DNA from: a virus | Length of the DNA: 64,000 nucleotides | Reading direction: 5' to 3' (one strand) | Virus record (IMG/VR): IMGVR_UViG_3300026518_000006 | Location: 171,594-235,593 of that record | Part shown: positions 24,611 to 42,579 of the stretch, piece after piece | How positions within the stretch are numbered: position 1 is the first letter of the stretch | Layout of the letters: each line of letters opens with the position of its first letter | Translations under genes and position numbers: made by a program | Notes under the pieces: model-generated | Databases searched by the model: none | Seen by the model: only the letters and a program-made list of their open reading frames with translations | What the model was told of the DNA's origin: nothing

Positions 24611-25744
24611 ATGGCTTGTTCATTAGAGGGTGGGTGTGGTAGCTCATCAGAAAGTATTCATATAGATATCAATACTACTAGCATTTGTAATATTGCTTGT
24701 ACTTATTGTTCAGAGGGAAATGAGTGTGGTTTGAGTACTCTATATATGGGGAATACTGAGGTAAAAGTAGAAGACTTGATTAAAAAATTAGGCAAAGACC
24801 CCGCTAAACATAAGACTATAAATTTTTGGGGGGGAGAGCCTTTTGTAAATTTTGATTTCTGCAAAGCTATTATAGACGGTTTTAAAGATGACAAAACATT
24901 TAGTTTCTTTTTTTATACCAATGGGTTGTATATACCAAATTATATCGACCAATTAAAGCGATGGAATGAAGAATTCGGGAAAGAGTTAAACGCTGATGGA
25001 CAAAATAGATTGTATCTTCAAATAAGTTATGATGGGCGACACCTCACAAATACAGTGAGAGTGGATAAAGGCGGTCACGGCACTGCTGATAGAGTTGAAA
25101 AGGCATATAAATTACTAAAAGAAAACAATATAGGAACTTCATTAAAAGCAGTGATTAGCACCGATGGTTTTCCATATCTTTTTGAAAGCTTTAAAGATTT
25201 ATATGAGCTTCAAGGTTTTTATTCACCAACACCTGATTTATGGTCTGATAGAAGTGAAGAAGAGTTCAATACTGATTTAGAAATACTTGGAAAAGAGCTT
25301 GAGAAGATAGCAAAGTATATATACCAAAATGATTTGAGTCCTGAAGTATTTAGTTGGTTTGCTAAATCAAGAGCGATTTGTAGTACAGGTGCGGGTATGC
25401 TTAGTATAGACCTTGATGGTGGCATATACCCTTGTCACGCAGGTATGTATGGTGAAAGCGAAGAGCATAAAATAGGAGAGCTTGAAGATTGGGAACATAT
25501 TAGAGAAAATGTTATGGATGACTTTAAAAAAATTAATACCAATCTTCCATTGGAATGTCAAACTTGTGATGTAAATTATTGTATGAAGTGCCAAATATCA
25601 AACTACGCAAAATCTACAAAAGATACATACGAGGAAAGATTTACAGATTATCAAGCAAATTGGCAGGTTTGCAAAATATTTAAAATGAACGACAAATATA
25701 ATAAAACACTGAGATATGCAATGACACAAAAAGGATTGAGATGA
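24611..25744 (+). CDS. Radical SAM/SPASM enzyme 1
   Basis: The product has 377 residues. The [4Fe-4S]-AdoMet motif is C26-N-I-A-C30-T-Y-C33, followed by 'INFWGGEPFVNFDFCKAI' (GGE motif) near 78. The C-terminal part has Cys in 'YPCHAGMYG' and 'CQTCDVNYCMKCQISNYA', plus a last Cys in 'NWQVCKIF', the spacing of a SPASM domain with auxiliary clusters, as in anSME and peptide-maturing enzymes. First gene of the island. Substrate unknown. A likely sigma-70-like promoter lies in the 70 bases upstream (TATAAGTATAATGC). Confidence 0.9.
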   Translation: MACSLEGGCGSSSESIHIDINTTSICNIACTYCSEGNECGLSTLYMGNTEVKVEDLIKKLGKDPAKHKTINFWGGEPFVNFDFCKAIIDGFKDDKTFSFFFYTNGLYIPNYIDQLKRWNEEFGKELNADGQNRLYLQISYDGRHLTNTVRVDKGGHGTADRVEKAYKLLKENNIGTSLKAVISTDGFPYLFESFKDLYELQGFYSPTPDLWSDRSEEEFNTDLEILGKELEKIAKYIYQNDLSPEVFSWFAKSRAICSTGAGMLSIDLDGGIYPCHAGMYGESEEHKIGELEDWEHIRENVMDDFKKINTNLPLECQTCDVNYCMKCQISNYAKSTKDTYEERFTDYQANWQVCKIFKMNDKYNKTLRYAMTQKGLR

Positions 25745-26364
25745 GTGCCAAACTCACATCTCAAGAGCTCAAAGATAAAGCAAATAAAAACAATCCTGAT
25801 GTGCAAATCATAGGTAAATATATAAATTCCAAAACAAACATCTATGTTATTTGTAAATGTGGCAATACGACATCTGTTAGACCCAGTGAATTATATAAAT
25901 CTTGGCGATGTTTTGAGTGTGGTATAAAAGCAAGAAAATACATAAATGGAAATGGAGGATGGTCAACTAAAAGAAATAAAGAAGCTAAAAACAGAATAAT
26001 TCAAAAACACAAAGAATTATTATCCAAAAAATTGCCACATATTGAGTTGGTAGGAGATTATGAGGACAGTAAAACAAAGACAAATTATATCTGTTTTAAG
26101 GTTGGATTAACTCTTTATAAGTATAATGATGTTACGAAATGTATAAAAAATCGCTTTAGAAAAGAGAATAATAATATACTTCTGTTAGGATATATTATAT
26201 TCAAAAATGGAGCGGAAGGTTATGAGTTGGAGCAAAGAATCTTAAATTCTCATCAAAAATATAACTCGGATATTTTGCAATTTGGTGGTAATTCCGAACT
26301 GTTATCTGAGAATATTATTGCTCTCGATAAATACAAATTCATAAAAACAAAGGAAATTATATGA
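25741..26364 (+). CDS. Homing-endonuclease-like protein (zinc ribbon plus GIY-YIG-like C-terminus)
   Basis: The product has 207 residues. A Cys-rich segment 'YVICKCGNTT' ... 'RCFECGIKAR' is a small zinc ribbon. The C-terminal 'NGAEGYELEQRILNSHQKY' and 'FGGNSELLSENI' match the C-terminus of the 236-residue gene at 34201 ('DGVQAYKLEQAVINELKDK', 'FSGYTEIFNEDFI'), a pattern of phage GIY-YIG-related homing endonucleases, with Glu of LEQ as the probable catalytic residue. It is inserted by ATGA overlaps between two radical SAM genes, the second of which carries the coding gap at 26574. Confidence 0.55.
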   Translation: MSAKLTSQELKDKANKNNPDVQIIGKYINSKTNIYVICKCGNTTSVRPSELYKSWRCFECGIKARKYINGNGGWSTKRNKEAKNRIIQKHKELLSKKLPHIELVGDYEDSKTKTNYICFKVGLTLYKYNDVTKCIKNRFRKENNNILLLGYIIFKNGAEGYELEQRILNSHQKYNSDILQFGGNSELLSENIIALDKYKFIKTKEII

Positions 26365-27660
26365 AAACAAACACAACAAACACAACAAACACACAAAAAT
26401 ATACTGAGCTTCAAGACAATAATATAAAAATGAAGTACAATATGAAAACAAACACAACAAACACAACAACCAAAATTAATACCAAAAAACCAACACAAAA
26501 AAGTAAAGGTAATGGATTTAAAACATTTACACTTGAAGTACAAACAACACAAAAATGCAATTTGGGCTGTCCTCGGCTTTGCCGATAAGTTAATTTTTTA
26601 GTATTTAGAGTAAATACCTTATTGCTATGTAGCAAATAGAGACCTTTTTCTTACACCTGAAGTATTTGATAAAAGTTTCGAAAGAATTATTGATTTAATG
26701 CAGAGAAGTGGCACTACCAATTTGAATATTAGTTTTTTTGGTGGCGAGCCTTTATTAAATTTTGAAGTTATCAAGCATATTACTAAAAGAGTTGAAGCAC
26801 TCCCTATTAGAACAGACTTAGTTTTAATTTCAAATATGACTATGATTACAGAAGAAATTTCAGACTTTTTGTTTGAGCATAATATTGGTGTGTCTTGGTC
26901 TTTCGATGGTATGGGGTCTAATGAAACAAGACCACTTTTGCCTATTTTTGAAAACAAGAATAAAGACGGAAAATTATACAATGGAATTTTAGACCTCTAT
27001 GAAGACAAAAAAGACCTTATTTTAAAGCACACCAACGGCTGTAAAATTATGATTTGGGCAGGAAATATGCACCAAATGAGCGAAAATTTAGACTTCTTTG
27101 TTGATTGGGGTTTAACAGGGCTTGATTACTCATTAGTAAGAGATGATGTGTGGACTAAAGATGATTTGATAGCATTTAGAGGACATCTAAGAGACTTAGC
27201 CGATAAGTATATTCAGTACACAAAAAAAGGTGTCCCTTTACATATAGGTTTTTTTGATTTAGCTATTGGTGATAATGTTATTAACTTTACATTTGGCAAA
27301 AGAGATTTCGGGTGTTTTGCAGGTGTAAATGGTGCAAATATGACACCAACAGGAGAGTTCTACCCTTGTGCTAGATTTGCTACAAAATCACTTATGAAAA
27401 TTGATGATGAGTATGATTTTAATTATTGGGCTGAACAATTTAGACCTGCCAATTATGATAAATGCAAGACTTGTGATATTCAACAAGTTTGTAACGCAGG
27501 ATGTACCTTTAGTCAAGTTAGAAATGACAATAAACCTGTGGATAGTGTTTGTGAGTTGTATCATATGATACAAGAAGAAACGATTAGAATAGTACACGAA
27601 TTAAAAGACAACGAGTTGTTTCAAGAACAGGTTATGTCATTATTTAACAATATGGGGTGA
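26361..27660 (+). CDS. Radical SAM/SPASM enzyme 2, interrupted by a 43-nt coding gap
   Basis: Translation from 26361 gives a Thr/Asn-rich leader with a repeated MKTNTTNTT segment, then 'TLEVQTTQKCNLGCP', and stops at TAA 26586-26588. From the second CCT at 26617 a different frame reads PYCYVANRDLFLTPEVFDK and runs to 27660 through 'LNISFFGGEPLLNFEVI', 'MTPTGEFYPCARF' and a SPASM end 'CKTCDIQQVCNAGC' plus 'SVCELY'. Joining at Pro71 yields C66-NLG-C70-P-Y-C73-Y, a perfect radical SAM motif, and about 417 residues with no other lesion. Both halves are therefore under selection or very recently split. See the separate entry for the gap. It is coupled to the endonuclease gene upstream. Confidence 0.75.
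26571..26619 (+). other. Candidate translational bypass element (take-off CCT, 43-nt gap, landing CCT)
   Basis: Take-off codon CCT at 26571-26573 and landing codon CCT at 26617-26619 are identical and 46 nt apart, so the frame changes by +1. The 43-nt gap opens with hairpin TCGGC-TTT-GCCGA (26573-26585), then the in-frame TAA, then an AT-rich linker, then hairpin GTATTTA-GAG-TAAATAC (26601-26617) that abuts the landing codon. T4 gene 60 has the same logic: matched GGA codons, a stop after take-off, a hairpin and a gap of about 50 nt, next to a homing endonuclease gene. Alternative: a palindromic insertion with a 3-bp duplication that inactivates the gene. Confidence 0.6.
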
Positions 27661-27662
27661 TT

Positions 27663-27848
27663 ATGGTGGGTTATATTTTAGAGTTTATATTTGAGTTATT
27701 GATTGGAATAATTACTATTGTAACAGCGTTGGTTATTATTATATTTGGGTTTGTATTTTTGTCTGTGGCAAATCTATTTGATAAATTATCTGATAAATTA
27801 TCTGATAAATTCTTTAGTAAAATAGAAACAAAAAAGGATAAAAATTGA
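27663..27848 (+). CDS. Small membrane protein
   Basis: About 61 residues. Two hydrophobic stretches 'GYILEFIFELLIGIITIVTA' and 'LVIIIFGFVFLSVANLF' make one hairpin or two membrane spans, followed by a tandem DKLSDKLSDK encoded by a 12-bp DNA repeat, and a Lys-rich tail. It overlaps the radical SAM gene upstream (GTG at 27657 is an alternative start). Confidence 0.6.
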   Translation: MVGYILEFIFELLIGIITIVTALVIIIFGFVFLSVANLFDKLSDKLSDKFFSKIETKKDKN

Positions 27849-28063
27849 GTTGTGAAACTGAACACAAAAACATAGATATAAATGATTTAGAAACAATGTT
27901 ACAAGAAGCCCGTAAAGGCAGAGCCAAAATAGACAAACAATATGTAGATTTTGATGAAAAAGGTCATTTGTTTGAATACAATATAGACTTTAATCAGTTT
28001 TTAGATGATATTAATTATATATTTAAAAAACACAAAGAGCGAAGTAGTGGACAAAAGAAATAA
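27845..28063 (+). CDS. Small acidic protein, possible radical SAM partner
   Basis: The product has 72 residues from a TTG start overlapping the previous stop (TTGA), beginning MSCETEHKNIDINDLETMLQ and ending ERSSGQKK. It lies between two radical SAM genes and overlaps the second. A carrier or substrate role is possible but nothing in the sequence proves it. Confidence 0.5.
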   Translation: MSCETEHKNIDINDLETMLQEARKGRAKIDKQYVDFDEKGHLFEYNIDFNQFLDDINYIFKKHKERSSGQKK

Positions 28064-28877
28064 TATCAGCACTCAAAATACCAACCTTGTGTATTTTACC
28101 ACAGCCTGCAATCTAGGGTGCACATATTGTTTCGAACAACTTGACAATATAAAACCAAAGCACATTCCAATACAAGAGTTGTATAAGATTGCAGACCGAG
28201 TTATAGAAGCTGAAGACCCCAACCTACAAACTCATTTTGTATTATATGGTGGAGAAGCAACACTTCGTTGGAAAGAAGCTGAACTCTTTATGGAATATGC
28301 ACACTCAAAAAAGAACAATGTCACATTTAACCTAATCACAAATGGAATATTGTTTTTAGATGATGAGTTTTTTAAGAATTTCTTTAGTAATAAATATTAT
28401 AATAATGGTATGCTCAGTATTGATATCTCATTTGATGGAGATAAGGGTAATGTTGAGCGTGTGTATAAAGATGGTGGAAGTAGTACTGAAGATGTTATTA
28501 TGGTTTTCAGTAAACTTAAAGTTTATAATCTTCGTTGGAGATTACGATACACAATTCACAAAAAAAACATAGATACTTTTGTTTATGATATTAAGAAATT
28601 GATTAAACATTTCAAACCCGAAAGAGTAATAAAAAATGTAGTATATCACGAACTTGATGAAAACGACCTATCTATGTTGGAGAAAGGCTTTGAGGAACTA
28701 AAGAAGAATTGGGATAACAAAAAAGACACTCCTATTTGTGATTTAGTTTGCGATACTTGTGATGGGTGTTCTATGACATTTGAAAACTATGCTAACCATA
28801 CTCCTGTAGGCACAAGCGTACATCCCAAGCAACAAGCTAAAATATATGATACTCTTGATAAACTAAAATATAAATAA
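28047..28877 (+). CDS. Radical SAM enzyme 3
   Basis: I choose the GTG at 28047, 17 bases inside the previous gene, because earlier in-frame starts lie within that gene's coding part. The motif is C21-NLG-C25-TY-C28-F, with 'FVLYGGEATLRWKEA' next. A C-terminal Cys group 'CDLVCDTCDGCSM' may bind an auxiliary cluster or zinc. About 276 residues. Immediately downstream are late virion genes, among them the Cys-rich fibre at 29271, which is a conceivable substrate. Confidence 0.8.
   Translation: MDKRNNISTQNTNLVYFTTACNLGCTYCFEQLDNIKPKHIPIQELYKIADRVIEAEDPNLQTHFVLYGGEATLRWKEAELFMEYAHSKKNNVTFNLITNGILFLDDEFFKNFFSNKYYNNGMLSIDISFDGDKGNVERVYKDGGSSTEDVIMVFSKLKVYNLRWRLRYTIHKKNIDTFVYDIKKLIKHFKPERVIKNVVYHELDENDLSMLEKGFEELKKNWDNKKDTPICDLVCDTCDGCSMTFENYANHTPVGTSVHPKQQAKIYDTLDKLKYK
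28869..28876 (+). promoter_or_regulatory. T4-type late promoter TATAAATA
   Basis: TATAAATA overlaps the last codons of the radical SAM gene, 16 bases before the ATG at 28892; somewhat close, so tentative. Confidence 0.45.
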
Positions 28878-28891
28878 GAAAAGGAAATTTA

Positions 28892-29266
28892 ATGAGCAAA
28901 AATACAACCAGTACTGAAACTACAAATAATAACGAAGTAGCACCTCCATTTGTTGAAGCAACTGAAGAAATTATTGAAATTTCAAAGGTATATGAAGCAT
29001 ATGGGGTTAGAGAGTTATTTCTTGACATCTTGGGGGTTTTTCTTGAGGTGACAAGAAACCTTGGAGCAGAAGCAAAAGGTATAAGTAGAACTGAAGTTAA
29101 AATGAAAATTTTTGAAAAGATGTTTGACATAAATATTGAAGAAGAAATTGAGAAAAAGGTTCAAGAGTATATTCAAAACAATACCTCAGACGCTGATACC
29201 GCAGATGTAGACGCTGAATTATTGGAAAGTATTCGCTCTAATTTCAATGAATATTTAAAGGATTAG
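28892..29266 (+). CDS. Probable virion protein, unknown
   Basis: The product has 124 residues with a Thr/Asn-rich start and helical rest ('FLDILGVFLEVTRNLGAEAK', 'EEIEKKVQEYIQNN'). Behind a late box and 5 bases before the Cys-rich fibre gene. Family not recognised. Confidence 0.5.
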   Translation: MSKNTTSTETTNNNEVAPPFVEATEEIIEISKVYEAYGVRELFLDILGVFLEVTRNLGAEAKGISRTEVKMKIFEKMFDINIEEEIEKKVQEYIQNNTSDADTADVDAELLESIRSNFNEYLKD

Positions 29267-29270
29267 AATT

Positions 29271-30082
29271 ATGAGTGATTGGCTAAAAAATCCATACGGA
29301 ACCCCAGGAGGAGACGAAAAAACTTATTCTTCTGAAGAATTAGCTCAAATGGGGGTAAATATAGGTGAGTTAATCACCAATGAAAAATTCAATTATTTAT
29401 CAGGGAAAGTTAAAAACGAATCTGCAAGAAGAGGTGTGGGGGTACCTGATTATGAGCGAAATGACGGTGAACTTATCACCGCTGTGGATTACAATGTGAT
29501 AATTGACAGAATTAATAATGTGTTGGATATTCCGAGAAACCCTGATGGAGCAGATTTACCACATTTGTCAAATGTTGCTATTGGAGATTTAATAACCGCT
29601 TTAATTCACAATAATATAAAAAACAAGCTTGTTGATGCAGGAAATCAATGTATGTGTAACTGTAATTACTGTGCTTGTAACTGTAATCAGTGCATCTGTA
29701 ACTGTAATCACGCTTGTGTGTGTAACTGTAATTATTCTGATGAACGACTTAAAACAAATATCGTTTATATAGGTGTTTTTTAATGTTTGGTTGGAATTTT
29801 ATAAAGGCATTAAAGCCCGCCAAATATGAGTACTCAAGTGTGGATGATAATCTTGAAATATCGAAAGATGGTAGAACTCATTTTGGAGTTATGGCGCAAG
29901 ATATTGAAGAATACCTGAAAAGTGTTTCTGATGAAGATTTCGCTATAATAGAAAAAGACGAAAACGGGTATATGATGGTAAATTATACCGAGCTGATTGC
30001 CCCTATGATAGCCACTATCCAACAACTTCAAGAAAGAGTGGAAGAACTAGAAATCCAAGTTTCTAACCACTCTTCAAAATAA
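29271..30082 (+). CDS. Cys-rich tail-fibre protein with split S74-type chaperone domain
   Basis: The first reading (29271-29783) has fibre-like text 'NPDGADLPHLSNVAIGDLIT' and then four heptads C-x-C-N-C-N-x, 12 Cys in 29 residues, before 'YSDERLKTNIVYIGVF' and TAA. The second (29783-30082) continues 'GWNFIKALKPAKYEY', 'HFGVMAQDIEEYLK' and a coiled end 'IQQLQERVEELEIQ'. Together they form a complete peptidase S74 intramolecular chaperone domain, which self-cleaves at the Ser of the SDERLK motif after fibre trimerisation. One T missing from, or a -1 slip on, the T6A run at 29775-29781 joins the two frames. Confidence 0.7.
29649..29735 (+). repeat. Four 21-bp repeats encoding Cys heptads
   Basis: Units TGT-x-TGT-AAC-TGT-AAT-x encode C-x-C-N-C-N-[YQH]; the third unit has one extra Ala codon. 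DNA conservation (repeated TGTAACTGTAAT) indicates recent tandem duplication. Confidence 0.85.
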
Positions 30083-30100
30083 TCACCAACCTCTTTTAAA

Positions 30101-30127
30101 GATTTTACTTTTTTAAAAAGTAAAATA
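30101..30127. terminator. Palindromic terminator, family copy 5
   Basis: ATTTTACTTTTTTAAAAAGTAAAAT core, extended by outer arms CCTCTTT and AAAGAGG, after the fibre gene and before the gene at 30204. Confidence 0.7.
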
Positions 30128-30203
30128 TTTCAAAGAGGTTGTTTCTTCAAAAAAATTTAAGCCTATTTTTATATAATAATTCAATTTAACATAAGGTATT
30201 ATA

Positions 30204-30758
30204 ATGCTATTCGAGATAAAACGAAACGACAACAAAATTTATATTTTAGGTAAAGCTACTTCAAAAAATGAAAGTTCCCTTGAGTTTGATGATAGTTTAG
30301 AGGCTGTAGTAAATGAAAATAGAGAGAAAAATAAGATAGTATATTATGACACTAATCTTGACAAAATTAAAATTGAAGACTCAAAGTATAGAGATATTCC
30401 GGTGACAGACTTTAATCGAGTAAAAGCCCTTAAAAAGGCTAGATTGGATTTAGAAAGTATCGTAAAAGATGTGGATATGATTGACTACATCAGATATATT
30501 GATTGCAATAACGAGCTTAATTCAAAAGGTTATTTTGTGACCGATGAAAATCGTGAGGAGGTTTATCTTGATATTTTAGAAAAAGGTGACGAAAAAGTGA
30601 TTGATATCCTTGAAGAATTTCTGATTACTAAAGATAAACTTACAATTATAAAATCAGCCAAGAAAAGATATGATGAGCTTGAAGAGGAAATTAAAGCGTC
30701 AAGTGAAGAAAATTTGGACACAAAAAAATTAAGTGAATTGTTGAATATAGAGTTCTAA
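30204..30758 (+). CDS. Unknown island protein
   Basis: The product has 184 residues. N-terminal beta strands ('LFEIKRNDNKIYILGKATS'), then charged helices ('EELEEEIKASSEENLDTKKL'). It resembles small phage tail-fibre assembly proteins only in size; no motif. It abuts the next gene. Confidence 0.55.
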   Translation: MLFEIKRNDNKIYILGKATSKNESSLEFDDSLEAVVNENREKNKIVYYDTNLDKIKIEDSKYRDIPVTDFNRVKALKKARLDLESIVKDVDMIDYIRYIDCNNELNSKGYFVTDENREEVYLDILEKGDEKVIDILEEFLITKDKLTIIKSAKKRYDELEEEIKASSEENLDTKKLSELLNIEF

Positions 30759-31561
30759 TGGAACATATAGGAGTATTCTACGATTTAATACCACACAAAA
30801 AAATAAACGGAAGTCTATTTTACGCTTTTGAATATTTTGTATTTTTAAATAAGTTTAAAAAAACTGTATTTTATATTTCTAATATTAGAGATGAGTATAT
30901 TGGTGAATTAAAAGAGGTATTTAAAAATAGATATAATTTCAATAATCATCTACTTGATAGAATAATTGCGATAAAAACTATAAAGCAATATACACTGATA
31001 AACAAAAATATCAAAAAGGCTTTGTTTGTAGATGTCCGTAGTTACGAAAACATCCACGCTTTTTTAAATTGTCCACTAGTGATATACTCAAATGAGGCGC
31101 ACGAAATAACCACCAAAAAACCACACAAAGTATTTGGGTACTATGACTATCAAAATTTCCAAATCAAAGAAAAACTAAAGTTTAATTTTGAGATATATAA
31201 GCCCATATCGAACAAGAAAACAAACACTGCACTTGTAACAAGAGTATTGGGAGCTGAAAATGTTATTCATAAAATAGACATAAAAGAAAACAATATAATA
31301 TATAAACCTAAAGAACACGCTATAGAAAGTGTTTTTGAAAAATTTGACACACTGTATTATTATCACAGCTTCTTGGACACAAATAATCGCCTTATAGTTG
31401 AAAGTTTATATTACAACAAGAATGTTGAAATTATATATACAGGACTCAAAAAAGATAGTGTTTATTATCGTTATAATGATATTATGAATAACGGGGTAGA
31501 CGGGTATCGTCTGACAAAAGATGATTTAATAATTCAGGAAATGCTAAGTGAAAATAGTTAA
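30758..31561 (+). CDS. Glycosyltransferase-like protein A
   Basis: The product has 267 residues. The C-terminus 'FDTLYYYHSFLDTNNRLIVES' with 'YYNKNVEIIYTGLK' and a final 'YRLTKDDLIIQEML' parallels the neighbouring protein at 31548 ('FDTYIYTEVPRHFDCSPRFI', 'YYDKKVIYHNIYY', 'LFLTKDDDLIPII'). The (N/P)-R-x-I-x-E-x-x-Y-Y-x-K-x-V pattern is typical of the donor half of GT-B glycosyltransferases. The two are paralogues in tandem. Exact family uncertain. Confidence 0.55.
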   Translation: MEHIGVFYDLIPHKKINGSLFYAFEYFVFLNKFKKTVFYISNIRDEYIGELKEVFKNRYNFNNHLLDRIIAIKTIKQYTLINKNIKKALFVDVRSYENIHAFLNCPLVIYSNEAHEITTKKPHKVFGYYDYQNFQIKEKLKFNFEIYKPISNKKTNTALVTRVLGAENVIHKIDIKENNIIYKPKEHAIESVFEKFDTLYYYHSFLDTNNRLIVESLYYNKNVEIIYTGLKKDSVYYRYNDIMNNGVDGYRLTKDDLIIQEMLSENS

Positions 31562-32438
31562 ACTTGACGGTGATTTAACTTTGACTTATAGTTGGAGTAA
31601 CAATAATCACGGTATTTGTGGACACACTTTTGAAGTAATTGAGTACTACTTTATACTGAAGGACTTTTTTGATACAAACATTTTATTATGTGAAGATATT
31701 ACACCTGAAATATTTAAATCGGCTATTGAGGACAAATATGATTTCACAAAAGAAGAAATTGCAGATATTTTAAACAATACAAAGTTTATTAATAGACCTA
31801 TATTATTAAAAGGAAAGAATATTTTATTTGTTGATGGTGGAATTATTAACACCAACAACTACACTCTCCTATTTGACAATATTTTTTACTTTGCTTGCGG
31901 GAATAAAGAGGTCAAACATAACAATAAAAACAATGTTTATATTTTACAAGATGATAGAGTATATGAGCCTGTTGTTAAGAATGGCATAAATTATAAAAAG
32001 AAGTTATTATTTGATAGAATGAAGCCTATCAAAAACAATAAAACAGCAAATCTAATCTATGTTACAAAGAATTGCCGTGATATAAATGATGAGGTATTTA
32101 AAGAGCTTGAAAAAACCTACGATGGAAACTTTTTATACTTAGGAAATGAAGAAAAATACACCTCAAATAGATTTAAATTTATGAAAATGCCCGTCCGTAA
32201 CCTTTTTAGTGAGTTTGACACCTACATATATACTGAAGTTCCAAGACACTTTGATTGTAGCCCAAGGTTCATAGCTGAATGCAAATATTATGATAAAAAA
32301 GTAATATACCACAACATCTATTATTTAGAAGAAGATTTAGGATTAAAGTGGAGAAAGTATGATATAGAAAATGACTTTAATTCACTATTCTTAACTAAAG
32401 ACGATGACTTAATACCTATTATAAAGAGTATAATATGA
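31548..32438 (+). CDS. Glycosyltransferase-like protein B
   Basis: The product has 296 residues from a GTG start overlapping the previous gene by 14 bases. 'SWSNNNHGICGHTFEVIEYY' at the start and 'RHFDCSPRFIAECKYYDKKV' near 245 fit a GT-B-like enzyme as in its paralogue at 30758. It overlaps radical SAM gene 4 by 4 bases, so glycosyl transfer and radical chemistry are expressed together. Confidence 0.55.
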   Translation: MKIVKLDGDLTLTYSWSNNNHGICGHTFEVIEYYFILKDFFDTNILLCEDITPEIFKSAIEDKYDFTKEEIADILNNTKFINRPILLKGKNILFVDGGIINTNNYTLLFDNIFYFACGNKEVKHNNKNNVYILQDDRVYEPVVKNGINYKKKLLFDRMKPIKNNKTANLIYVTKNCRDINDEVFKELEKTYDGNFLYLGNEEKYTSNRFKFMKMPVRNLFSEFDTYIYTEVPRHFDCSPRFIAECKYYDKKVIYHNIYYLEEDLGLKWRKYDIENDFNSLFLTKDDDLIPIIKSII

Positions 32439-33061: not shown

Positions 33062-33075
33062 ATTAGAGGTGTAAT

Positions 33076-34131: not shown

Positions 34132-34200
34132 ACACTATTAAAGATGTAATTAAGTTTGATTAATTAAAATAATTAATCAAAACATAAGGTTAAACACAGT

Positions 34201-34911: not shown

Positions 34912-35032
34912 GGTTGAAATGGTATTATTCATTAATAATTTGTTAATTAATGTTGTATTTTATTAACAGATTACAAATAAAATAAGTCATTCGACTAAAA
35001 AACAAAAAATCCCAAGAGGTAAAGGAATAATT

Positions 35033-35614
35033 ATGAAGCATATTATCGCTTTTTTCGGAATTATGGCAGTTATGGTATCAACAGCAGTTGCAGGTGGGGA
35101 CATCGCACCAGTAGAGCCTGTAGTAGAGCAACCCAAGAACTTTTATGTAGGTGGCGCATTAACAGCTTCGCAAGTATATGACCAAGGTGACTCTCATTGG
35201 TTTAACGACACTGCATCAGCAGAAACAGGATATGGTCTTGGTGTTCAAGCAGGTTATGTATTCTTTAGAACAGGTGATTTTTCTTCGGCTGTAGAGGTTA
35301 GAGCTAACAGAACATTTTGGTCTTTTGCAGATGATGTTGATGGTGAAGTAACCTCTTACGGTGCTTTTGTTAAACCTGAGTATAGCTTTGGTGATTATGG
35401 TGTTTATGGTCTTGTTGGTTATGGTCAAACAAGACTTACAGGTACAGGATTCAAACAAACAGAAAATGGTTTTGCATATGGCGGTGGTGTAGAATATGCA
35501 CTTACTGAGTCATTTGCTGTATTTGTTGATTATGTGGTTAATCCTGAAATCAAAGAAACTCCGAAAGATATCGAAAATGACACTATTTCAATCGGTGTAA
35601 ACTACAAGTTCTAA
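35033..35614 (+). CDS. Outer-membrane beta-barrel protein, host-like
   Basis: The product has 193 residues. A signal peptide 'MKHIIAFFGIMAVMVSTAVA' is followed by GGDIAPVEPVVEQPKNFYVG, then alternating strands ('FSSAVEVRANRTFWSF', 'YGVYGLVGYGQTRLTG') and a C-terminal 'ISIGVNYKF' ending in Phe, the beta-barrel assembly signal. The text is typical of small outer-membrane proteins of Campylobacterota. A phage copy may alter the surface of infected cells, for example to block superinfection. It has its own terminator. Confidence 0.8.
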   Translation: MKHIIAFFGIMAVMVSTAVAGGDIAPVEPVVEQPKNFYVGGALTASQVYDQGDSHWFNDTASAETGYGLGVQAGYVFFRTGDFSSAVEVRANRTFWSFADDVDGEVTSYGAFVKPEYSFGDYGVYGLVGYGQTRLTGTGFKQTENGFAYGGGVEYALTESFAVFVDYVVNPEIKETPKDIENDTISIGVNYKF

Positions 35615-35634
35615 TCCTTAATTAGAGCTATTTG

Positions 35635-35656
35635 AGAACACTCCGAAGAGTGTTCT
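35635..35656 (+). terminator. Terminator after the outer-membrane protein gene
   Basis: AGAACACTC-CGAA-GAGTGTTCT hairpin, perfect 9-bp stem, followed by ATTAATAGTTTG. Weak U-run, so partly readthrough. Confidence 0.6.
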
Positions 35657-35679
35657 ATTAATAGTTTGTAAGGATATAA

Positions 35680-36369
35680 GTGAAAATAACCAATTTTAAA
35701 CTACTTCAATCGGAGCAGATGGACTATTTTGATATCAAGATAAATATCAAGATTTCCTCGCAGATAAATCAATGGACAGAAGAAGATTTTGAAACAGTAT
35801 TGGGCTTTATAGCAAAACAAAAATACAACAAAATTTGGGTTATAATTGAAACTATCGACACAAATCATTGGGAATACTTCATATATGAACTAATAAAGAT
35901 ATTCTATAATAAAGAGCTTTTAGTAGAGTTTCCTAAATTAGATATAGATGATAATAGATTGGAACTTTTTGTGACCCAAATCAACGAAATAAAATCATAC
36001 CAACAAGAGTTTGTGTTTTGTGAAGACAATAGAGTGTCGGATAAATACATAGATGATGAGGGTATATACTACAGAGAAAATGACTCCAAAAAACACCATA
36101 GAAATTTTAAAATAATAACGAAAAACAAAGAAAAGATAATCACAGAAAAAGAAGCCTTAAAACTGCCATTTAAAGATATGAAGTGTCAGAGTGGTGTGAA
36201 AAGTCTTTTTATAGATGAGATGTTAAACGCTTACCATTGTATACAAGATTGCCAGTCTGATACAAACATAATTAACTTGAAAACCAATAAAAGCGATAAT
36301 TTTTTTAAGCCCACTATATGTGAGCATAAACAATGTAAAAGCGGTTTAGATTTTGAGAAGTTTATATGA
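35680..36369 (+). CDS. Degenerate radical SAM-family relative without the AdoMet cluster motif
   Basis: The product has 229 residues from a GTG start behind AAGGATATAA. The C-terminus 'MKCQSGVKSLFIDEMLNAYHCIQDCQSD' (read in parts) with 'ICEHKQCKSGLDF' parallels the C-terminal Cys domain of enzyme 7 ('TCYINELNIDIDGNISNDC', 'KEQCKDCTG'). There is no CxxxCxxC in the N-terminal half. It may be a partner subunit or a dead copy. Overlaps the glycosyltransferase gene by 4 bases. Confidence 0.5.
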   Translation: MKITNFKLLQSEQMDYFDIKINIKISSQINQWTEEDFETVLGFIAKQKYNKIWVIIETIDTNHWEYFIYELIKIFYNKELLVEFPKLDIDDNRLELFVTQINEIKSYQQEFVFCEDNRVSDKYIDDEGIYYRENDSKKHHRNFKIITKNKEKIITEKEALKLPFKDMKCQSGVKSLFIDEMLNAYHCIQDCQSDTNIINLKTNKSDNFFKPTICEHKQCKSGLDFEKFI

Positions 36370-37001
36370 AACTCAGTGTTTTAATACCTACCCATAATAG
36401 ACCAAAAATGTTTAAAAGAGCCCTCAGCAGTATATTGAGTGTGATGGGAAAATATAATGTTGAGATTATTGTAAGATGTGATGACAACAGTGTTACAAAA
36501 AAGGATATACCTGTAGGACATAATATCCACCTCTACCACGCTAAAAAAGACATCAATGGAATGTACAAAGAACTCTATGAAAAGAGCACAGGGGATTATA
36601 TCTATTACTTAGAGGACGATGATTATATTACGCCTTATTTTGAAACAGCATATAAAGAAGTATCAAACGGTTTAGAACTCTTTGTAGGGCTGTATAATAG
36701 TGTTAATAAAGAGACCAATATTTCGCAAATATCCGAATATCGGATAAAACACAACACCTTATATATACCAAGTGATTTTCAATTGAGTCAAATGATTTTT
36801 AAACGAAATTTAATAAAACCAAGTGATTTCCCAACATCATACCATAATGAAAATGATGAGGTGTTATTGAAAACTATTTTAGACAGAGTTAATAAAAAGA
36901 AAGTAAAGTATTCAATGCGATATATATTTAATCAGGACATTGACTATAATAACCTCAGTTTAGATGATATTTTAAAACCAAGAAAGATAAAAAATGGATA
37001 A
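36366..37001 (+). CDS. Family 2 glycosyltransferase (GT-A)
   Basis: The product has 211 residues. 'LSVLIPTHNRPKMFKRALSS' is the nucleotide-binding start, 'IIVRCDDNS' and 'GDYIYYLEDDDYITP' give the D-x-D metal site. Short relative to full GT2 enzymes but has all catalytic landmarks of the N-terminal half. It is coupled to its neighbours on both sides. Confidence 0.85.
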   Translation: MKLSVLIPTHNRPKMFKRALSSILSVMGKYNVEIIVRCDDNSVTKKDIPVGHNIHLYHAKKDINGMYKELYEKSTGDYIYYLEDDDYITPYFETAYKEVSNGLELFVGLYNSVNKETNISQISEYRIKHNTLYIPSDFQLSQMIFKRNLIKPSDFPTSYHNENDEVLLKTILDRVNKKKVKYSMRYIFNQDIDYNNLSLDDILKPRKIKNG

Positions 37002-37893
37002 TTTTGACTATTTTTATGAAGATGTAGTGAATTATAGCAACGACAACACTATTCAATTATTCATAGACATCACTACAGTTTGCAATCTTACCTGTAGCTA
37101 TTGTTTCGCACGAAAAGAAAAGGATTGGGATGAGGTTTTAGAGACAGAAAGAGTGCAGAAAATTATGACACTAATCAAACAAAGTCCTTATAATTTCAAT
37201 GTATTGTTATTCGGAGGAGAACCACTACTTCATAAAGATATAGAAACGATAATCAATATTATTAAAAAGTCAGATAAAGTAAAGAATATTATGGTGCTTT
37301 CAAACGGGACTTTAAGTGACGGATTGTATGATTTCAAAGATGTGTATTATTGCTTGACACTTCACGAACTTACAGATAAACAAATAGATAAGTTTGTGAG
37401 GCATTGTCATAAAATAGAGCCCGATAAATTGAAGATAAATATACCTTTAAATATTTACAACACTTCACTAAAAAGAGCGTACAAAAAACTAATTCAAGAG
37501 GGCTTTAAAGACAAGATATTTTTCAGTGTTATTTATGATGATGATACTAAAAATATAATACCTCTTCCTGAAATAAGAGAACGCCTTGATTATATCGACT
37601 TTACTATAGATGATAATCACTATCTCAACGGAAAGAGAATGAACTATATGGATTATTTAGATTTGCATTTATCACTAAATCCAAAAAGAGATGTAAAGAC
37701 CTGTTATATTAATGAACTAAACATAGATATTGATGGTAATATAAGTAATGATTGTATGGGTATAAATTCCAACATTTATGATGATGTTTTTTTCTTTAAA
37801 CACTTTAAATTAGGGTATAATTGCACAAAAGAACAATGTAAAGATTGTACAGGAACTATCACCTGTGCTAAAGAGTTACAGGAGAGAAAATGA
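36994..37893 (+). CDS. Radical SAM enzyme 6
   Basis: The product has 299 residues. Motif C30-NLT-C34-SY-C37-F, then 'VLLFGGEPLLHKDIETI'. C-terminal Cys: 'TCYINEL', 'ISNDCMGI', 'NCTKEQCKDCTGTITC', a twitch or SPASM-like auxiliary domain. Overlaps the amidinotransferase gene by 4 bases. Confidence 0.85.
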   Translation: MDNFDYFYEDVVNYSNDNTIQLFIDITTVCNLTCSYCFARKEKDWDEVLETERVQKIMTLIKQSPYNFNVLLFGGEPLLHKDIETIINIIKKSDKVKNIMVLSNGTLSDGLYDFKDVYYCLTLHELTDKQIDKFVRHCHKIEPDKLKINIPLNIYNTSLKRAYKKLIQEGFKDKIFFSVIYDDDTKNIIPLPEIRERLDYIDFTIDDNHYLNGKRMNYMDYLDLHLSLNPKRDVKTCYINELNIDIDGNISNDCMGINSNIYDDVFFFKHFKLGYNCTKEQCKDCTGTITCAKELQERK

Positions 37894-38411
37894 CAGAATA
37901 TGATGAGTTAAAGACTGTAGTAGTTGGAAGAGATTTTGACTGCAACTATATTATTGACAAAGAACTAAAATACTCATTAACATTGAAAGGTGATTTTGAT
38001 TATGATAAATTCTATAATGATATTAAAAAGAATTTAAGAGAGCGAAATGAATCACTTGATAAGTTATCAGAAATATTGGAAAGTAAAGGCGTTAAAGTAT
38101 TTAGACCAAAATACAACTCTTATGATGAGATAGTTGATGACTCAGGTAAAGATGTTGCTGATACTCAGAATTTTGATAGCAATGCCCGGGATATTTTTAT
38201 AGTTATCGAGGATAAAGTGATTATTGCGCCTACATTTAACTCAAGAAGAAATAAGTTATATAAACTCTATGAAAATGTGTTTGAGTATTTGTTGGGAAAA
38301 GGGTATAAAATAATTTATCCTCCTGAAACAAACGGAAAGCGTGATTTCGATTATTACCCTATCACAACTCCTGTTGATTTTTTTGTTGAAAAAGCTCACG
38401 ACTATGTTTGA
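37890..38411 (+). CDS. Amidinotransferase, N-terminal half
   Basis: The product has 173 residues. 'EYDELKTVVVGRDFD', 'LDKLSEILESKGVKVFRPKY' and 'SNARDIFIVIEDKVIIAPTFNSRRN' match the first half of the arginine:glycine/inosamine amidinotransferase fold, including the catalytic Asp before ARD. Reading stops at TGA 38409-38411; the rest of the enzyme is in another frame starting at 38404. See the C-terminal half. Confidence 0.75.
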   Translation: MTEYDELKTVVVGRDFDCNYIIDKELKYSLTLKGDFDYDKFYNDIKKNLRERNESLDKLSEILESKGVKVFRPKYNSYDEIVDDSGKDVADTQNFDSNARDIFIVIEDKVIIAPTFNSRRNKLYKLYENVFEYLLGKGYKIIYPPETNGKRDFDYYPITTPVDFFVEKAHDYV

Positions 38412-38931
38412 GACAGCCAATTTAATCAAAACAAAAGATGGAGTTGTGTTTAATATAAGTAATCATAATCATTATAGTGGTTATCTTTGGTTTAAAGAAA
38501 TTGTTGATTGTGATGTTTTTCCTTGTTTTGTTGATTATGGTCATATAGATGGGGGAATGAATATAGTCAATGATGACTTATTACTATTATGTTTTAACTC
38601 AGACCATATATCTGAATCTGAAATATTAAAAAAAATACCAACACCATTTAAAAAATGTGATGTAATAACGGTTGACAAAAATCCTAAATCATATAAAAGA
38701 AAAACCGATGTATTTTTGGCTTCAAAGGGAGGAATGGAAATAAACAGTTTATCAATAAATCCAAACACTATTATAATATCAAAAAATAAATCTTTAAAAA
38801 AGAAGCTTAATGATAGAAATATAGATGTTATCGAAATGTCGTTAAAACACGATAGACTGTTTAATGGAGGTGTGCATTGTGTTACTGTAGACTTAGAAAG
38901 AAGTGATGATGAATCCACACTATCAATTTAA
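38404..38931 (+). CDS. Amidinotransferase, C-terminal half
   Basis: ATG at 38404 overlaps the stop of the N-terminal half (ATGTTTGA). The product has about 175 residues: 'FETANLIKTKDGVVFNISNH', 'DYGHIDGGMNIVNDDLLL' with catalytic His, and 'NGGVHCVTVDLERSDD' with catalytic Cys. These are the second-half motifs of amidinotransferases. 'FETANL' corresponds to the family's 'FDAAD' just after the break, so nothing is missing. Either a two-chain enzyme made by stop-start coupling or a small frameshift of one functional gene. The product would transfer an amidino group from arginine, for example to an amino sugar. Confidence 0.7.
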   Translation: MFETANLIKTKDGVVFNISNHNHYSGYLWFKEIVDCDVFPCFVDYGHIDGGMNIVNDDLLLLCFNSDHISESEILKKIPTPFKKCDVITVDKNPKSYKRKTDVFLASKGGMEINSLSINPNTIIISKNKSLKKKLNDRNIDVIEMSLKHDRLFNGGVHCVTVDLERSDDESTLSI

Positions 38932-39727
38932 CTATTACATCAATACCATTTGCAATCAGTATTGTGATTATTGTTATGCACGAAATGGGTATGAATGGAA
39001 TAAAATAAAACCTTTAAGGACTATCTTGACAGAATTAAGTTGGTTCAAAGAATTTAAGCATAAATCTATTATAACTCTTATTGGAGGAGAGCCTACTTTA
39101 CACCCAAAATTCAATGAAATAGTCACATTTATAGCTGAAAATCTTGACCATTATTTGCATATATATACAAACGGACAATTTAATGTAGATAAAGTGTCTC
39201 ATACACTTAAACATAATGCGCTTTGGACTTTCAGTTATCACGGTAAATATGTGAAAGATGAAAAATTATTTATAAAGAACATCGAGTATTTTATAAACAA
39301 TAATATAGATTTTAATATTACTATTATAGCGCAAAACACGATTTCTGATGAGTTTTTCAATTTTTTGAAAAACAATAATTTAAAAGAAAAGGTATCAGTG
39401 ACATTTATCCACGAATCAAATGATTATACACCAAACGAAACAATTAATTCGATATTCTTCAGTGATTGGTTCAAAAACACCAAAAATATGGTAAGTTTTT
39501 ATGATGATAACTATTTTAAGAAAAATGCAAGATATAAAGGTCGCAAATGCTATTACAATGAGATTGATATATTGGATGGAAAAATACACTCTAATGAATG
39601 TAATATAGATTTTTGTGAGCCATTTACAAAAGAAGCACTGTTGCAATTACCGCCTTTTTCTCCTGTTGTTTGTGATAGAGACTATTGTAAACAAGATTGT
39701 GCTTTTCTGTTCCCAAAGAAGGTATAA
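38906..39727 (+). CDS. Radical SAM enzyme 7
   Basis: About 273 residues; start chosen among GTG/ATG/ATG at 38903-38911. Motif CNQYCDYCYAR near 16-26, 'ITLIGGEPTLHPKFNEI'. C-terminal Cys in 'CYYNEID', 'NECNIDFCEPF', 'VVCDRDYCKQDCAFLF'. It overlaps the amidinotransferase end by about 26 bases. Resembles enzymes 6 and 8 in overall layout. Confidence 0.85.
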   Translation: MMNPHYQFNYYINTICNQYCDYCYARNGYEWNKIKPLRTILTELSWFKEFKHKSIITLIGGEPTLHPKFNEIVTFIAENLDHYLHIYTNGQFNVDKVSHTLKHNALWTFSYHGKYVKDEKLFIKNIEYFINNNIDFNITIIAQNTISDEFFNFLKNNNLKEKVSVTFIHESNDYTPNETINSIFFSDWFKNTKNMVSFYDDNYFKKNARYKGRKCYYNEIDILDGKIHSNECNIDFCEPFTKEALLQLPPFSPVVCDRDYCKQDCAFLFPKKV

Positions 39728-39728
39728 A

Positions 39729-40679
39729 ATGCAAACTTACAATAACAAAGAAATTGTTAAATTTTATAATAGAAATGAAATTAAAGACCATAATTTTTTA
39801 ATATTTGAACTACTTATAATAGAGGTGTGTAATCTACATTGTTCTTATTGTTATATGCGAAATGAAAGCCCCACTTGGGAAAGTATATACCGAAAAGAAA
39901 AAATCACAGCTATTATAGAAAAATTATCGTCTTTAAATAAACCAGTATCAATTTGTTTGAGTGGAGGTGAAGCAACACTCAGCCCACATTTTATGTATTT
40001 TGTAAAATTGATAACTACACATATAAAAAATCCAAACAGTGCTATAAAGAACTTGCATATAAACACAAACTTCAGATTGTCTAAAGAGAAGATAAAAGAA
40101 ATTCAGTCTATAAATCCTAATGTTACATTTCACATATCTTACCACAGCTCTGACGAAACACCACAAGATGAGTTTATAGAAAAGTTATTATTGTTGCCAT
40201 CTGAACATAGAGAGCTAAATATTATGTTGCACCCAAAAAAATCTGAACTTAAAAAAACCGAAAACTTTATCCAAAAATGTATCGAAGCAGGTATAAACTT
40301 TTATGTCAAACCTGTCTATATAAATGGAAAATATAAACCCCAAAAACACGCCCTTGAAATTATTGAGAAGTATTCTCAATATACCACTAAAGAATATATA
40401 ATAGAAAGTAAAGAAGATAAAACACCAATGAATGATTGGGATTTATACCAAAATAATTTGATACCTTTAGATACTTTTGGTTATAACTGCAAATATACTT
40501 TTTTTACTATTGATGGTAATGGGTATATCAAACAGATGTGTAAATTGTTTGATATCAATAATATTTTTGATGATTTTCAATTTTTCTTAGACTATAATAT
40601 AAAAGATGGTATAATATGTCCATTTAAAAATTCTTGCCTATGGGCTTCGTCTTTAGACCACTTAAAAGAGAAGATATGA
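39729..40679 (+). CDS. Radical SAM enzyme 8
   Basis: The ATG at 39729 (MQTYNNKEIVKFYNRN) lies right after the previous stop; earlier in-frame starts would lie within that gene. The product has 316 residues with C34-NLH-C38-SY-C41-Y, 'VSICLSGGEATLSPHF', and C-terminal 'FGYNCKYTFFTIDGNGYIKQMC' (in parts) plus 'IICPFKNSC'. Overlaps the next gene by 4 bases. Confidence 0.85.
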   Translation: MQTYNNKEIVKFYNRNEIKDHNFLIFELLIIEVCNLHCSYCYMRNESPTWESIYRKEKITAIIEKLSSLNKPVSICLSGGEATLSPHFMYFVKLITTHIKNPNSAIKNLHINTNFRLSKEKIKEIQSINPNVTFHISYHSSDETPQDEFIEKLLLLPSEHRELNIMLHPKKSELKKTENFIQKCIEAGINFYVKPVYINGKYKPQKHALEIIEKYSQYTTKEYIIESKEDKTPMNDWDLYQNNLIPLDTFGYNCKYTFFTIDGNGYIKQMCKLFDINNIFDDFQFFLDYNIKDGIICPFKNSCLWASSLDHLKEKI

Positions 40680-41581
40680 CATACAATAATCAACATACAA
40701 CAATAGTGATTCCAATTGAAAACCATAAACAATTATTAGTACAAACTATAATTTTGATAAGAAGTATAAGACAAAATATCCCAAACAGAAGAGTGTTAAT
40801 AATCAATCACAACAATTCCAATATACCCGAATGGTTTATAAAGCTATTGGATGATGAAGAGTTGATAAATATATCTTTGACTAATAACAAATGGTATTAT
40901 AAGAAAGAAGCTTATTTTTTACTTATGCCCGAAACACTAAAATATGTAAATGAAAATTACAACTTAGATGCCTATTTATTTTTAGACCCCGACACTATAA
41001 TCACAGAGTCTTTACCACCCGCCTCAAATAGTGTAGATGTCTTCAAAACACCGATGAATGAGTACACAGACTTATTACTTTATATGTTTTCTATAGAACA
41101 CCCTGTAATAAAAAAGAACTACACACATTTTGACACTTTTTGTATTTATTCTAAAAACAAAGATTTTATTAACGATTGGTATGAAGAATCAGTAAAACTT
41201 TCCAAATTCAAAAGTAAAATTAATGAGCGTTTTCAACATTTTTGTGAGGAGTTGGCTATTACTATATTAATGGATAAATACACTATAACGAGTCAAGTTT
41301 CAAACGCTTTTTTGGACACAGAACCAATTATGTTTAAACCTGTTTATCATTATGATAATCTCAAAAACATATACAACCATCTACCAAAAAAAGACAAAAT
41401 ATTAGTAGATGTTATATTAAAAGGTGAGTATATGGGGGAGGACAAACACTACAGGGTCATAAATAATTTAGATGTTATAAAAAAAGAAATAGAAGATTTT
41501 ATCAAATATGAAAAATCACCAATCTATTATGAAACAATTAGAACACTACGGTACAAAACCCCATATGATTTTATAGATTAG
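40676..41581 (+). CDS. GT-A-type glycosyltransferase-like protein
   Basis: Starts MTYNNQHTTIVIPIENHKQL at the ATG at 40676 overlapping the previous stop (ATGA). The product has 301 residues. 'NYNLDAYLFLDPDTIITESL' carries a D-x-D-type metal site, and 'YTHFDTFCIYSKNKDFINDW' with 'EELAITILMDK' resembles the acceptor half of family 8-like or related sugar transferases. Sugar and acceptor unknown. Confidence 0.55.
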   Translation: MTYNNQHTTIVIPIENHKQLLVQTIILIRSIRQNIPNRRVLIINHNNSNIPEWFIKLLDDEELINISLTNNKWYYKKEAYFLLMPETLKYVNENYNLDAYLFLDPDTIITESLPPASNSVDVFKTPMNEYTDLLLYMFSIEHPVIKKNYTHFDTFCIYSKNKDFINDWYEESVKLSKFKSKINERFQHFCEELAITILMDKYTITSQVSNAFLDTEPIMFKPVYHYDNLKNIYNHLPKKDKILVDVILKGEYMGEDKHYRVINNLDVIKKEIEDFIKYEKSPIYYETIRTLRYKTPYDFID

Positions 41582-41589
41582 GAATAAAA

Positions 41590-42579
41590 ATGAGACAGTA
41601 TGATTTTAATTATATTGATAGCAAAGTAGTTGGGTTTATGATAAATGATATTTGTAATATGGCTTGTACTTATTGTTATCAACAAGCAAACAATTTATGT
41701 GAAGACGACCACAAAAAAAATAGAGCTCTTATTGATAAAGTGCTTGATTATGTTGTGCATCTATCAGAAGTAGATAGACCTCATCAGATAAGCATAGAGG
41801 GAGGGGAGCCATTTTTTGATACACAAACATTAGAATACTTTTTCACACAGGTTGAAAAAAAATTAAAACAATACCCAAATTTTTATTCAAGGATATTAAT
41901 TGTAACAAACGGGACTAAAAGAGATAATATAAAATACATTATAGATAAATTTGATTTTAGTGCTTTCAATGTCACAATGGAAGTATCATTACATTATACG
42001 CAAATGTCAAATACAGCACTAAAAAAATTCACATCTAATGTTGTGGAATTTAAAAAATATATTGAGTATGTTAGAGTATTGGCACCATTAAGCCTAAAAA
42101 AGCTCCCAAAATACCTAAATATTATATTGAAAGTGTTAGATTTGCACGATGTATATTATTTTTTTGCACCAATTGTAGGATTAAATGAAATTAATGAGAT
42201 ATATGATATGAGTGGTTTTCCTTTTAAGGGTGAGGTAGATGTTTTAATAAATGGGGAAACAAAGAATATCAATGCAATATACGACAAATCACTAACAACT
42301 GACGGTATGGTGTGTGAAAATAATCAGTGCTTCTTTTTTTATAATACAGGGGATATAAAAATGTTTTCCTGTATTAATAATAGAGAAACAAAAAATATCT
42401 TCAAAGATAGTTTTGATGATATTTTTCAAATGGATAAACGAACAATATGTACTCTTGATTATTGTATGGACTGTAATTTGAATACAAAATATGAGATGTC
42501 TGAGTTAGACCCAAACAATAAAGACGATGCTGACTTAATAAAATATTACATAGAGCAACGAAATAATACATCTTTCTAA
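41590..42579 (+). CDS. Radical SAM enzyme 9
   Basis: The product has 329 residues. C22-NMA-C26-TY-C29-YQQ, 'QISIEGGEPFFDTQTLEY', and C-terminal 'VCENNQCFFFYN', 'MFSCINN', 'TICTLDYCMDCNLN', an auxiliary-cluster pattern. Last of the series; followed by a 64-base gap with inverted repeat TGCCATAAA...TTTATGGCA before the transketolase gene. Confidence 0.85.
   Translation: MRQYDFNYIDSKVVGFMINDICNMACTYCYQQANNLCEDDHKKNRALIDKVLDYVVHLSEVDRPHQISIEGGEPFFDTQTLEYFFTQVEKKLKQYPNFYSRILIVTNGTKRDNIKYIIDKFDFSAFNVTMEVSLHYTQMSNTALKKFTSNVVEFKKYIEYVRVLAPLSLKKLPKYLNIILKVLDLHDVYYFFAPIVGLNEINEIYDMSGFPFKGEVDVLINGETKNINAIYDKSLTTDGMVCENNQCFFFYNTGDIKMFSCINNRETKNIFKDSFDDIFQMDKRTICTLDYCMDCNLNTKYEMSELDPNNKDDADLIKYYIEQRNNTSF

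Follow-up and report, generated by a model that had tools for sequence, protein, structure and literature searches.

The last 64 kb of the 235,593-base IMG/VR virus record IMGVR_UViG_3300026518_000006 (the window, meaning the whole stretch of DNA analysed here) carry, within 18 kb, eight intact radical S-adenosylmethionine (SAM) genes, a ninth that a short insertion disrupts, and one further gene, the tenth, without the CxxxCxxC motif. An initial annotation, made from the sequence alone, had counted nine such enzymes plus one degenerate relative and proposed a single pathway making a modified glycan, glycopeptide or virion surface. Those three products likely include the right one, but the proposal missed a cassette that three of the enzymes form with a cysteine-rich fibre gene. 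The supposed single unit falls into two parts: Module 1 (24611-30758) holds radical SAM enzymes A, B and C and the fibre, and Module 2 (30758-45761) holds the remaining radical SAM genes among sugar-type genes.

Genes of the cysteine-fibre cassette

Eight window genes (24611, 28005, 32435, 33076, 36994, 38903, 39615/39729 and 41590) combine CxxxCxxC with a PF04055 match above the curated cut-off, and these are the sole such matches in the whole record, all within about 17 kb. The two pieces of enzyme B and the gene at 35680 lack this combination, so that the count of nine stands for eight intact genes, with the ninth (26361) interrupted. Module 1 comprises the following genes.

24611-25744, plus strand: enzyme A, SPASM-type, first radical SAM enzyme of the cassette (PF04055, 5.2e-11; TIGR04085 above cut-off; nearest PDB sequence 5wgg)
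25741-26364, plus strand: HNH-endonuclease-like gene between A and B (phrog_559, 1.7e-11)
26361-27660, plus strand: enzyme B, in two open reading frames (ORFs), 26361-26588 and 26698-27660 (PapB-like, below cut-off)
27845-28063, plus strand: x1, small conserved cassette protein, 72 amino acids (alignment of 18)
28005-28877, plus strand: enzyme C, with an invariant C-terminal four-cysteine cluster (PF04055, 2.5e-14; alignment of 19; nearest PDB sequence 5wgg)
28892-29266, plus strand: x2, small conserved protein between C and the fibre, recurring in that position in related regions
29271-29783, plus strand: fibre protein with four C-x-C-N-C-N-Y-type units (12 cysteines), then SDERLK at its end (phrog_26958, 5.4e-12)
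29783-30082, plus strand: S74 intramolecular-chaperone domain as its own ORF, TAATG overlap (PF13884, 2.7e-06)
30204-30758, plus strand: conserved protein downstream of the fibre (phrog_25260), a neighbour in related regions

The family matched by the fibre, phrog_26958, is that of CPT_0180 in the firehammervirus CP220. The S74 domain (28 bits against a cut-off of 22) lies C-terminal to the fibre as a separate ORF, and it is likewise a downstream ORF with its own start in L049, L051 and L055 (L-numbers label the compared loci and regions). A programmed frameshift fusing fibre and S74 is therefore unneeded. In these three loci, as at 29783 in the window, the upstream ORF ends about 12-15 residues past the SD site where S74 is split off; autocleavage at an SD site is known for endosialidases.

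Best NCBIfam matches (results cover the 25 best families per protein for most proteins) for A, B and C are all to PapB (NF047865), a thioether-forming ranthipeptide maturase, at 80.7, 106.7 (26698 piece of B) and 67.8 bits, none reaching the cut-off of 340 bits, nor do the B proteins of L194 (127) and L019 (130). The nearest PDB sequence to A and C is 5wgg (7e-20 and 9e-17, respectively), CteB, a SCIFF thioether maturase. The SPASM model TIGR04085 (cut-off 27 bits) matches A at 31.2 and the 26698 piece of B at 35.3 bits, while for C and the other window radical SAM genes it is not among the matches listed; PF13186 matches 24611 only, below cut-off. The earlier statement that most of the enzymes carry SPASM-like domains is thus borne out in part, for two of them among the matches listed. 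An alignment of 19 A proteins shows no variation at the three cluster cysteines or at those of the SPASM domain, and 19 C proteins are equally constant at the three cluster cysteines and in the C-terminal four-cysteine cluster; the iron-sulphur ligands of both enzymes are intact.

A FastTree phylogeny of 151 radical SAM domains, what remained of 231 after thinning at 70% identity, places A, B and C in one clade (support 0.91), in which A groups with CP220's CPT_0184 (1.0) and C with a member from the related phage CPt10 (0.99). The genes at 36994, 38903, 39729 and 41590 belong to a separate 52-leaf grouping that carries no support value, and 33076 and 32435 sit in clades of their own, which rules out a single expanded family of nine. 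Further, the pairwise distances of A, B and C correlate at r 0.93-0.97 over 24 loci, with 0 of 2000 permutations as high; judged by these protein distances, the three enzymes evolve together.

A stop codon a little way into the CxxxCxxC-coding stretch ends the first ORF of B, and the remainder is read in another frame, with about 46 extra nucleotides within 26571-26619, inside that stretch. Intact family B proteins, 57-60% identical, occur in L019, L196 and L212, where A and B are adjacent and the HNH-like gene is missing. The insertion (26571-26619) lies shortly downstream of that gene (25741-26364) and resembles an endonuclease-associated insertion. Translational bypass was considered by analogy with T4 gene 60, where bypass occurs beside an endonuclease gene; it is not supported, the RNA fold being no better than shuffles (z -0.07), and a plain insertion is simpler. 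With B interrupted, the pathway may be impaired in this phage, which represents its own system poorly.

Pairing of the enzymes with the cysteine repeat

A DNA pattern for CNCNxCxCNCN, blind to radical SAM genes, was run on IMG/VR and returned 47 records, 42 of which contain PF04055 matches, up to 16 per record. The control, a DNA pattern for S74 fibres independent of the cysteine repeat, gave at least 80 loci. The 36 whose contigs reach 18 kb or more were examined, and among them 3 contain any PF04055 match and 2 a match above cut-off. The difference between 42/47 and 3/36 is unlikely to be chance (Fisher p 2e-14) and is seen in both size classes compared, with 9/10 repeat records against 1/28 controls at 18-45 kb and 24/25 against 2/8 at 45-120 kb. 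Measured against the same controls, the density of radical SAM genes in the window is far above chance. Two of the 47 records (L026 and L060) are chance matches without a repeat ORF, leaving 41 of 45 with radical SAM genes. The five records free of them are L026 together with L041, L042, L043 and L064, and in the latter four the repeat gene lies at most about 1.6 kb from the contig end. Many of the 47 are near-copies: clustered at 80% identity, the repeat genes of the 45 form 29 clusters, 28 of which are accompanied by radical SAM genes.

The search in the opposite direction used the alignment of 19 A proteins and followed the best 80 of 146 IMG/VR relatives, divided afterwards into 40 close and 40 distant ones where identity drops from 34% to 27%. 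The repeat is present in the fetched stretch of 35 of the 40 close relatives and in none of the 80 S74 control loci; among the five exceptions, L250 and L252 end within the cassette and L269 is a near-copy of L236 whose fibre gene is partly missing. Thirteen of the 40 distant relatives have a different run, CNCNCNC, at a protein end, again seen in 0/80 control loci. A pattern-limited scan of GTDB genomes with the same A query yielded two contigs, each with the repeat, so family A seems to be nearly phage-bound as far as that scan goes. The co-occurrence of A, and with it B and C, with the repeat is thus specific and runs both ways.

The arrangement of these genes is conserved as well. Scanning 37 regions of up to 20 kb, with family labels assigned by profiles built on the same loci, located a repeat ORF in 36, A in 33, B in 34, C in 29 and x1 in 25. 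A, B and C always share the strand of a repeat gene, A is never more than 5 kb away, and the median distances to the repeat gene are 2.7 kb for A, 1.6 kb for B and 0.4 kb for C. The usual order is A-B-x1-C-x2-repeat gene; in a second class, the repeat gene comes first, followed by A-B-..-x1-C (L197, L200, L211, L215 and L217), and in a third, B-..-A precedes it. The cassette also occurs without glycan genes (L196, L199, L212, L221; CPCNCNF class). In L201 and L204, several tandem fibre-like genes with cysteine repeats stand behind one A-B-x1-C cassette.

The repeat tends to sit close to the protein end. Among 40 repeat ORFs from 35 regions (L192-L226), 8 end at most 6 residues past the last CxC, 22 continue into SDxxLK, and the other 10 end within 22 residues or run into an S74-type SD site. 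Four-unit tips were compared using regular expressions that require 12 cysteines, so the invariance of those cysteines is by construction; the sole informative part of the comparison is that TGT and TGC both occur at each of the 12 positions over 28 nucleotide versions.

A second architecture emerged from 11 of the distant A-relative loci, mapped ORF by ORF: the CNCNCNC run lies at most 12 residues from the C-terminus in 11/11, with a radical SAM gene within 2.5 kb in 10/11. In L277, L279, L288, L293, L297, L302 and L309, siphophage-type tail modules encode fibre-like proteins with CNCNCNC-type ends and one or two radical SAM genes within about 1 kb, and the fibre of L302 has T7-tail and collagen domains. 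In the cultured Achromobacter phage JWF, the tail-fibre-like gp028 (L315, 4712-6163) carries NCNCDCNCNC directly before a Hint (intein-like) domain, PF05203, and the radical SAM gene gp030 follows two genes later.

The sugar and surface island

The remaining radical SAM genes belong to Module 2, whose genes are as follows.

30758-31561, plus strand: glycosyltransferase-like by its initial label, unconfirmed (phrog_14526, 6.5e-06, a family without known function)
31548-32438, plus strand: GT-B-like glycosyltransferase belonging to the sugar island's conserved core (phrog_24441; predicted model)
32435-33061, plus strand: short radical SAM gene, in its own clade with a CPt10 member (PF04055, 2.8e-10; tree)
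33076-34131, plus strand: radical SAM gene conserved in firehammerviruses (CPT_0157) and 19 IMG/VR loci (phrog_27238, 2.8e-99)
35033-35614: outer-membrane beta-barrel gene, OmpA-like (PF13505, 2e-19)
35680-36369, plus strand: degenerate radical SAM relative without CxxxCxxC (aligns with radical SAM genes of L015, L008, L018 and CPt10)
36366-37001, plus strand: GT2 glycosyltransferase (PF00535, 2.2e-10)
36994-37893, plus strand: radical SAM gene of the variable island (PF04055, 3e-14; 43% to an L009 gene, colinear block)
37890-38931, plus strand: amidinotransferase-like gene split over two frames (phrog_25854 for each half; relatives in L001, L002, L019 and L021)
38903-39727, plus strand: radical SAM gene of the variable island (PF04055, 8.1e-13; tree)
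39729-40679, plus strand: radical SAM gene of the variable island (PF04055, 7.3e-13, for the longer ORF from 39615; tree)
40676-41581, plus strand: glycosyltransferase-like by its initial label, unconfirmed (38% to an L009 gene)
41590-42579, plus strand: radical SAM gene of the variable island (PF04055, 5.1e-08; tree)
42644-43339, plus strand: N-terminal (thiamine pyrophosphate) half of a transketolase (PF00456, 4.4e-08)
44477-44956, plus strand: pyrimidine-binding half of a transketolase, weak match (PF02779, 0.0027, below cut-off)
44937-45761, plus strand: NAD-dependent epimerase/dehydratase (PF01370, 9.5e-09)

Here, the earlier proposal of a sugar or surface island fits: the radical SAM genes at 32435, 33076, 36994, 38903, 39729 and 41590 accompany glycosyltransferases, the amidinotransferase, the split transketolase and the epimerase. 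Module 2 is most likely an exchangeable sugar/surface island. Relatives of the module in other phages presumably add DegT-, PIG-L- and epimerase-like genes, names assigned by sequence rather than obtained from model matches. The enzymes do not scatter among unrelated families without shared neighbours, which would have told against the initial annotation, because their neighbours are strongly shared; relatives of 33076 occur in the firehammerviruses (PMC2853527) and in 19 further IMG/VR loci, each record with 2-12 radical SAM matches. Gene order in these loci puts SPASM-type radical SAM genes beside a fibre-like protein that carries cysteine repeats.

Individual gene labels needed more adjustment. 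Of the four glycosyltransferase-like genes originally named, 36366 is a Pfam GT2 enzyme and 31548 is GT-B-like, and the genes at 30758 and 40676 (the latter with no Pfam or PHROG match) are unconfirmed. The protein at 31548 has no Pfam match, and Foldseek alone gave no significant hit (best E 7e-3); its predicted model (predicted local distance difference test score 92.5) superimposes best on PimA (2gej), with Z 16.1 over 257 residues at a root-mean-square deviation of 3.5, and as modelled it has a GT-B fold. The degenerate relative at 35680-36369 aligns with radical SAM genes of L008, L015, L018 and CPt10 and lacks CxxxCxxC, and it has no Pfam, NCBIfam or PHROG family match. The amidinotransferase is present as named, although split over two frames that change near 38400; by coordinates, the halves share one frame in the relatives in L001, L002, L019 and L021. 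The transketolase pair and epimerase are likewise present, at 42644-45761, beyond the 18 kb to which they had been assigned, and the weak second half (44477-44956) is 52-56% identical to genes in L010, L012, L015 and L016. The GTDB scan found no relative of the OmpA-like gene (35033-35614).

Fibre maturation, rival readings and known systems

We propose, with a probability of roughly two in three, that A, B and C modify the cysteine tip of a phage fibre, probably by thioether stapling, and that Module 2 is an exchangeable sugar/surface island. Aided by x1 and x2, the three enzymes would act on the C-x-C-N-C-N-Y end of the fibre at 29271, most likely bonding the sulphur of each cysteine to a carbon of a neighbouring residue in the manner of PapB- and SCIFF-type maturases, and the adjacent S74 chaperone would help the fibre to trimerise. 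Stapled cysteines at or near the C-terminus would then give a hardened tip on the virion. More broadly, we lean, if only slightly, towards the view that three or more kinds of phage (large aquatic phages together with firehammerviruses, siphophage-type phages whose fibres carry T7-tail and collagen domains, and Achromobacter phage JWF) build fibre tips resembling ribosomally synthesized and post-translationally modified peptides (RiPPs). In these tips, radical SAM-stapled cysteine arrays would be cross-linked rods, formed or exposed with the help of S74 or Hint domains, a case of virion proteins matured by radical chemistry that would have evolved more than once.

Several observations weigh against this proposal. 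B is interrupted in the window itself, no A, B or C member scores above any curated peptide-maturase cut-off in NCBIfam, and the low-confidence model of x1 (predicted template modelling score 0.31), two helices, does not show it to be a RiPP recognition element. In L213, B alone is near the repeat; L267 and L268 have an A relative and no repeat in the fetched stretch, as do 27 of the 40 distant A relatives; and in CP220, C lies about 77 kb from the repeat gene.

One rival extends the sugar reading to the whole island, A-C included, which would make one modified glycan or sugar nucleotide and would adjoin the fibre gene because tail-fibre regions are insertion hot spots. The GT2 and GT-B-like genes, transketolase halves, epimerase and amidinotransferase around the later radical SAM genes speak for it, as do the further sugar-type genes of related loci. 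Yet A-C and the repeat occur without glycan genes in L196, L199, L212 and L221, S74 fibres free of the repeat are seldom accompanied by radical SAM genes (3/36), and the pairing recurs in siphophage-type tail modules, so that we regard this rival as unlikely. We think it improbable, too, that the fibre trimer uses its CxC repeats as metal-ion ligands or for disulphides, with A-C delivering or inserting a cofactor or acting elsewhere. CxC runs are good metal ligands, the repeat is dominated by cysteines, and HxH motifs of T4 gp37 bind iron; simple metal binding, however, requires no dedicated enzymes, whereas the repeat is found in tight linkage with A-C, and these enzymes look like peptide maturases, not like cluster-assembly proteins. 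Very little probability attaches to the idea that the nine radical SAM genes are general helpers of anaerobic metabolism acquired in bulk. This was suggested for CP220 and CPt10 by Timms et al. (PMC2853527), whose paper provides a precedent of 11 and 12 radical SAM genes and a suggested host fitness benefit. A random set would not be expected to show the conserved cassette order, the co-inheritance (r 0.93-0.97) or the recurrent fibre partner.

If stapling of the fibre tip is correct, it would give a function to a share of the radical SAM genes whose presence in phage genomes has been a puzzle ever since CP220, add a new class of radical SAM substrate (long fibre proteins in place of short peptides) and predict unusually tough, chemically cross-linked phage tips. 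Why such phages carry ten or more radical SAM genes would also become testable in cultured phages, as the firehammerviruses and JWF are isolates. A full-text literature search, judged by titles and the starts of abstracts and with most subscription journals outside it, found no paper linking radical SAM enzymes with a phage fibre.

Compared with known peptide maturation systems, the cassette resembles the PapB ranthipeptide and SCIFF systems in its SPASM-type A and B and in the cysteine-rich putative substrate encoded next door. It differs in scoring 68-130 bits against the cut-off of 340, and in having a long fibre as the presumed substrate and three enzymes instead of a short peptide and one. 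The CXXX-repeat (TIGR04115) and Cys-every-fifth (NF038107) systems share partial sequence similarity and regular cysteine spacing in the presumed target; here A reaches only 67.3 of 350 and 55 of 600 bits, respectively, and the repeat unit, part of a phage fibre, spans seven residues of which three are cysteines. With S74 (endosialidase-type) and T4 gp37-type fibres, the window fibre has in common an S74 end and ligand-like tip repeats, and it departs from the S74 fibres found independently of the cysteine repeat, 33/36 of whose records are without radical SAM genes.

The closest parallels are the firehammerviruses CP220 and CPt10, although megablast of the island against the phage collection gave no DNA-level match and the first structural gene of the window had no tblastn match in phages. 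According to the available part of Timms et al. 2010 (PMC2853527), the two phages have 11 and 12 radical SAM genes (PF04055 gives 11 matches in each record) and differ from each other in a 10-12-gene cluster that includes five radical SAM genes and a glycine amidinotransferase; that part mentions CPT_0180 for a 21-bp repeat and does not link it to the radical SAM genes. The window likewise has several radical SAM genes and an amidinotransferase gene in one exchangeable cluster, and with this precedent, which the initial annotation did not mention, the cluster as such was already known. Counterparts of the 33076 protein in 15 Campylobacter phage records share 47-49% identity with it, and the CP220/CPt10 relatives of 33076, A and C are 48%, 29% and 26% identical, respectively. 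CPT_0180, found in 15 firehammervirus records, has CNCNYCT repeats like those of the window fibre, and CP220 encodes a family A relative (CPT_0184) 2.2 kb from it. CP220 also encodes CPT_0154 (L020, 18747-19172), whose 141 residues include 27 cysteines spaced in CxxC fashion; its gene precedes the radical SAM gene CPT_0157 by about 0.8 kb on the upstream side. Relative to these phages, the window is distinguished by its compact A-B-x1-C-x2-fibre cassette and its larger sugar island.

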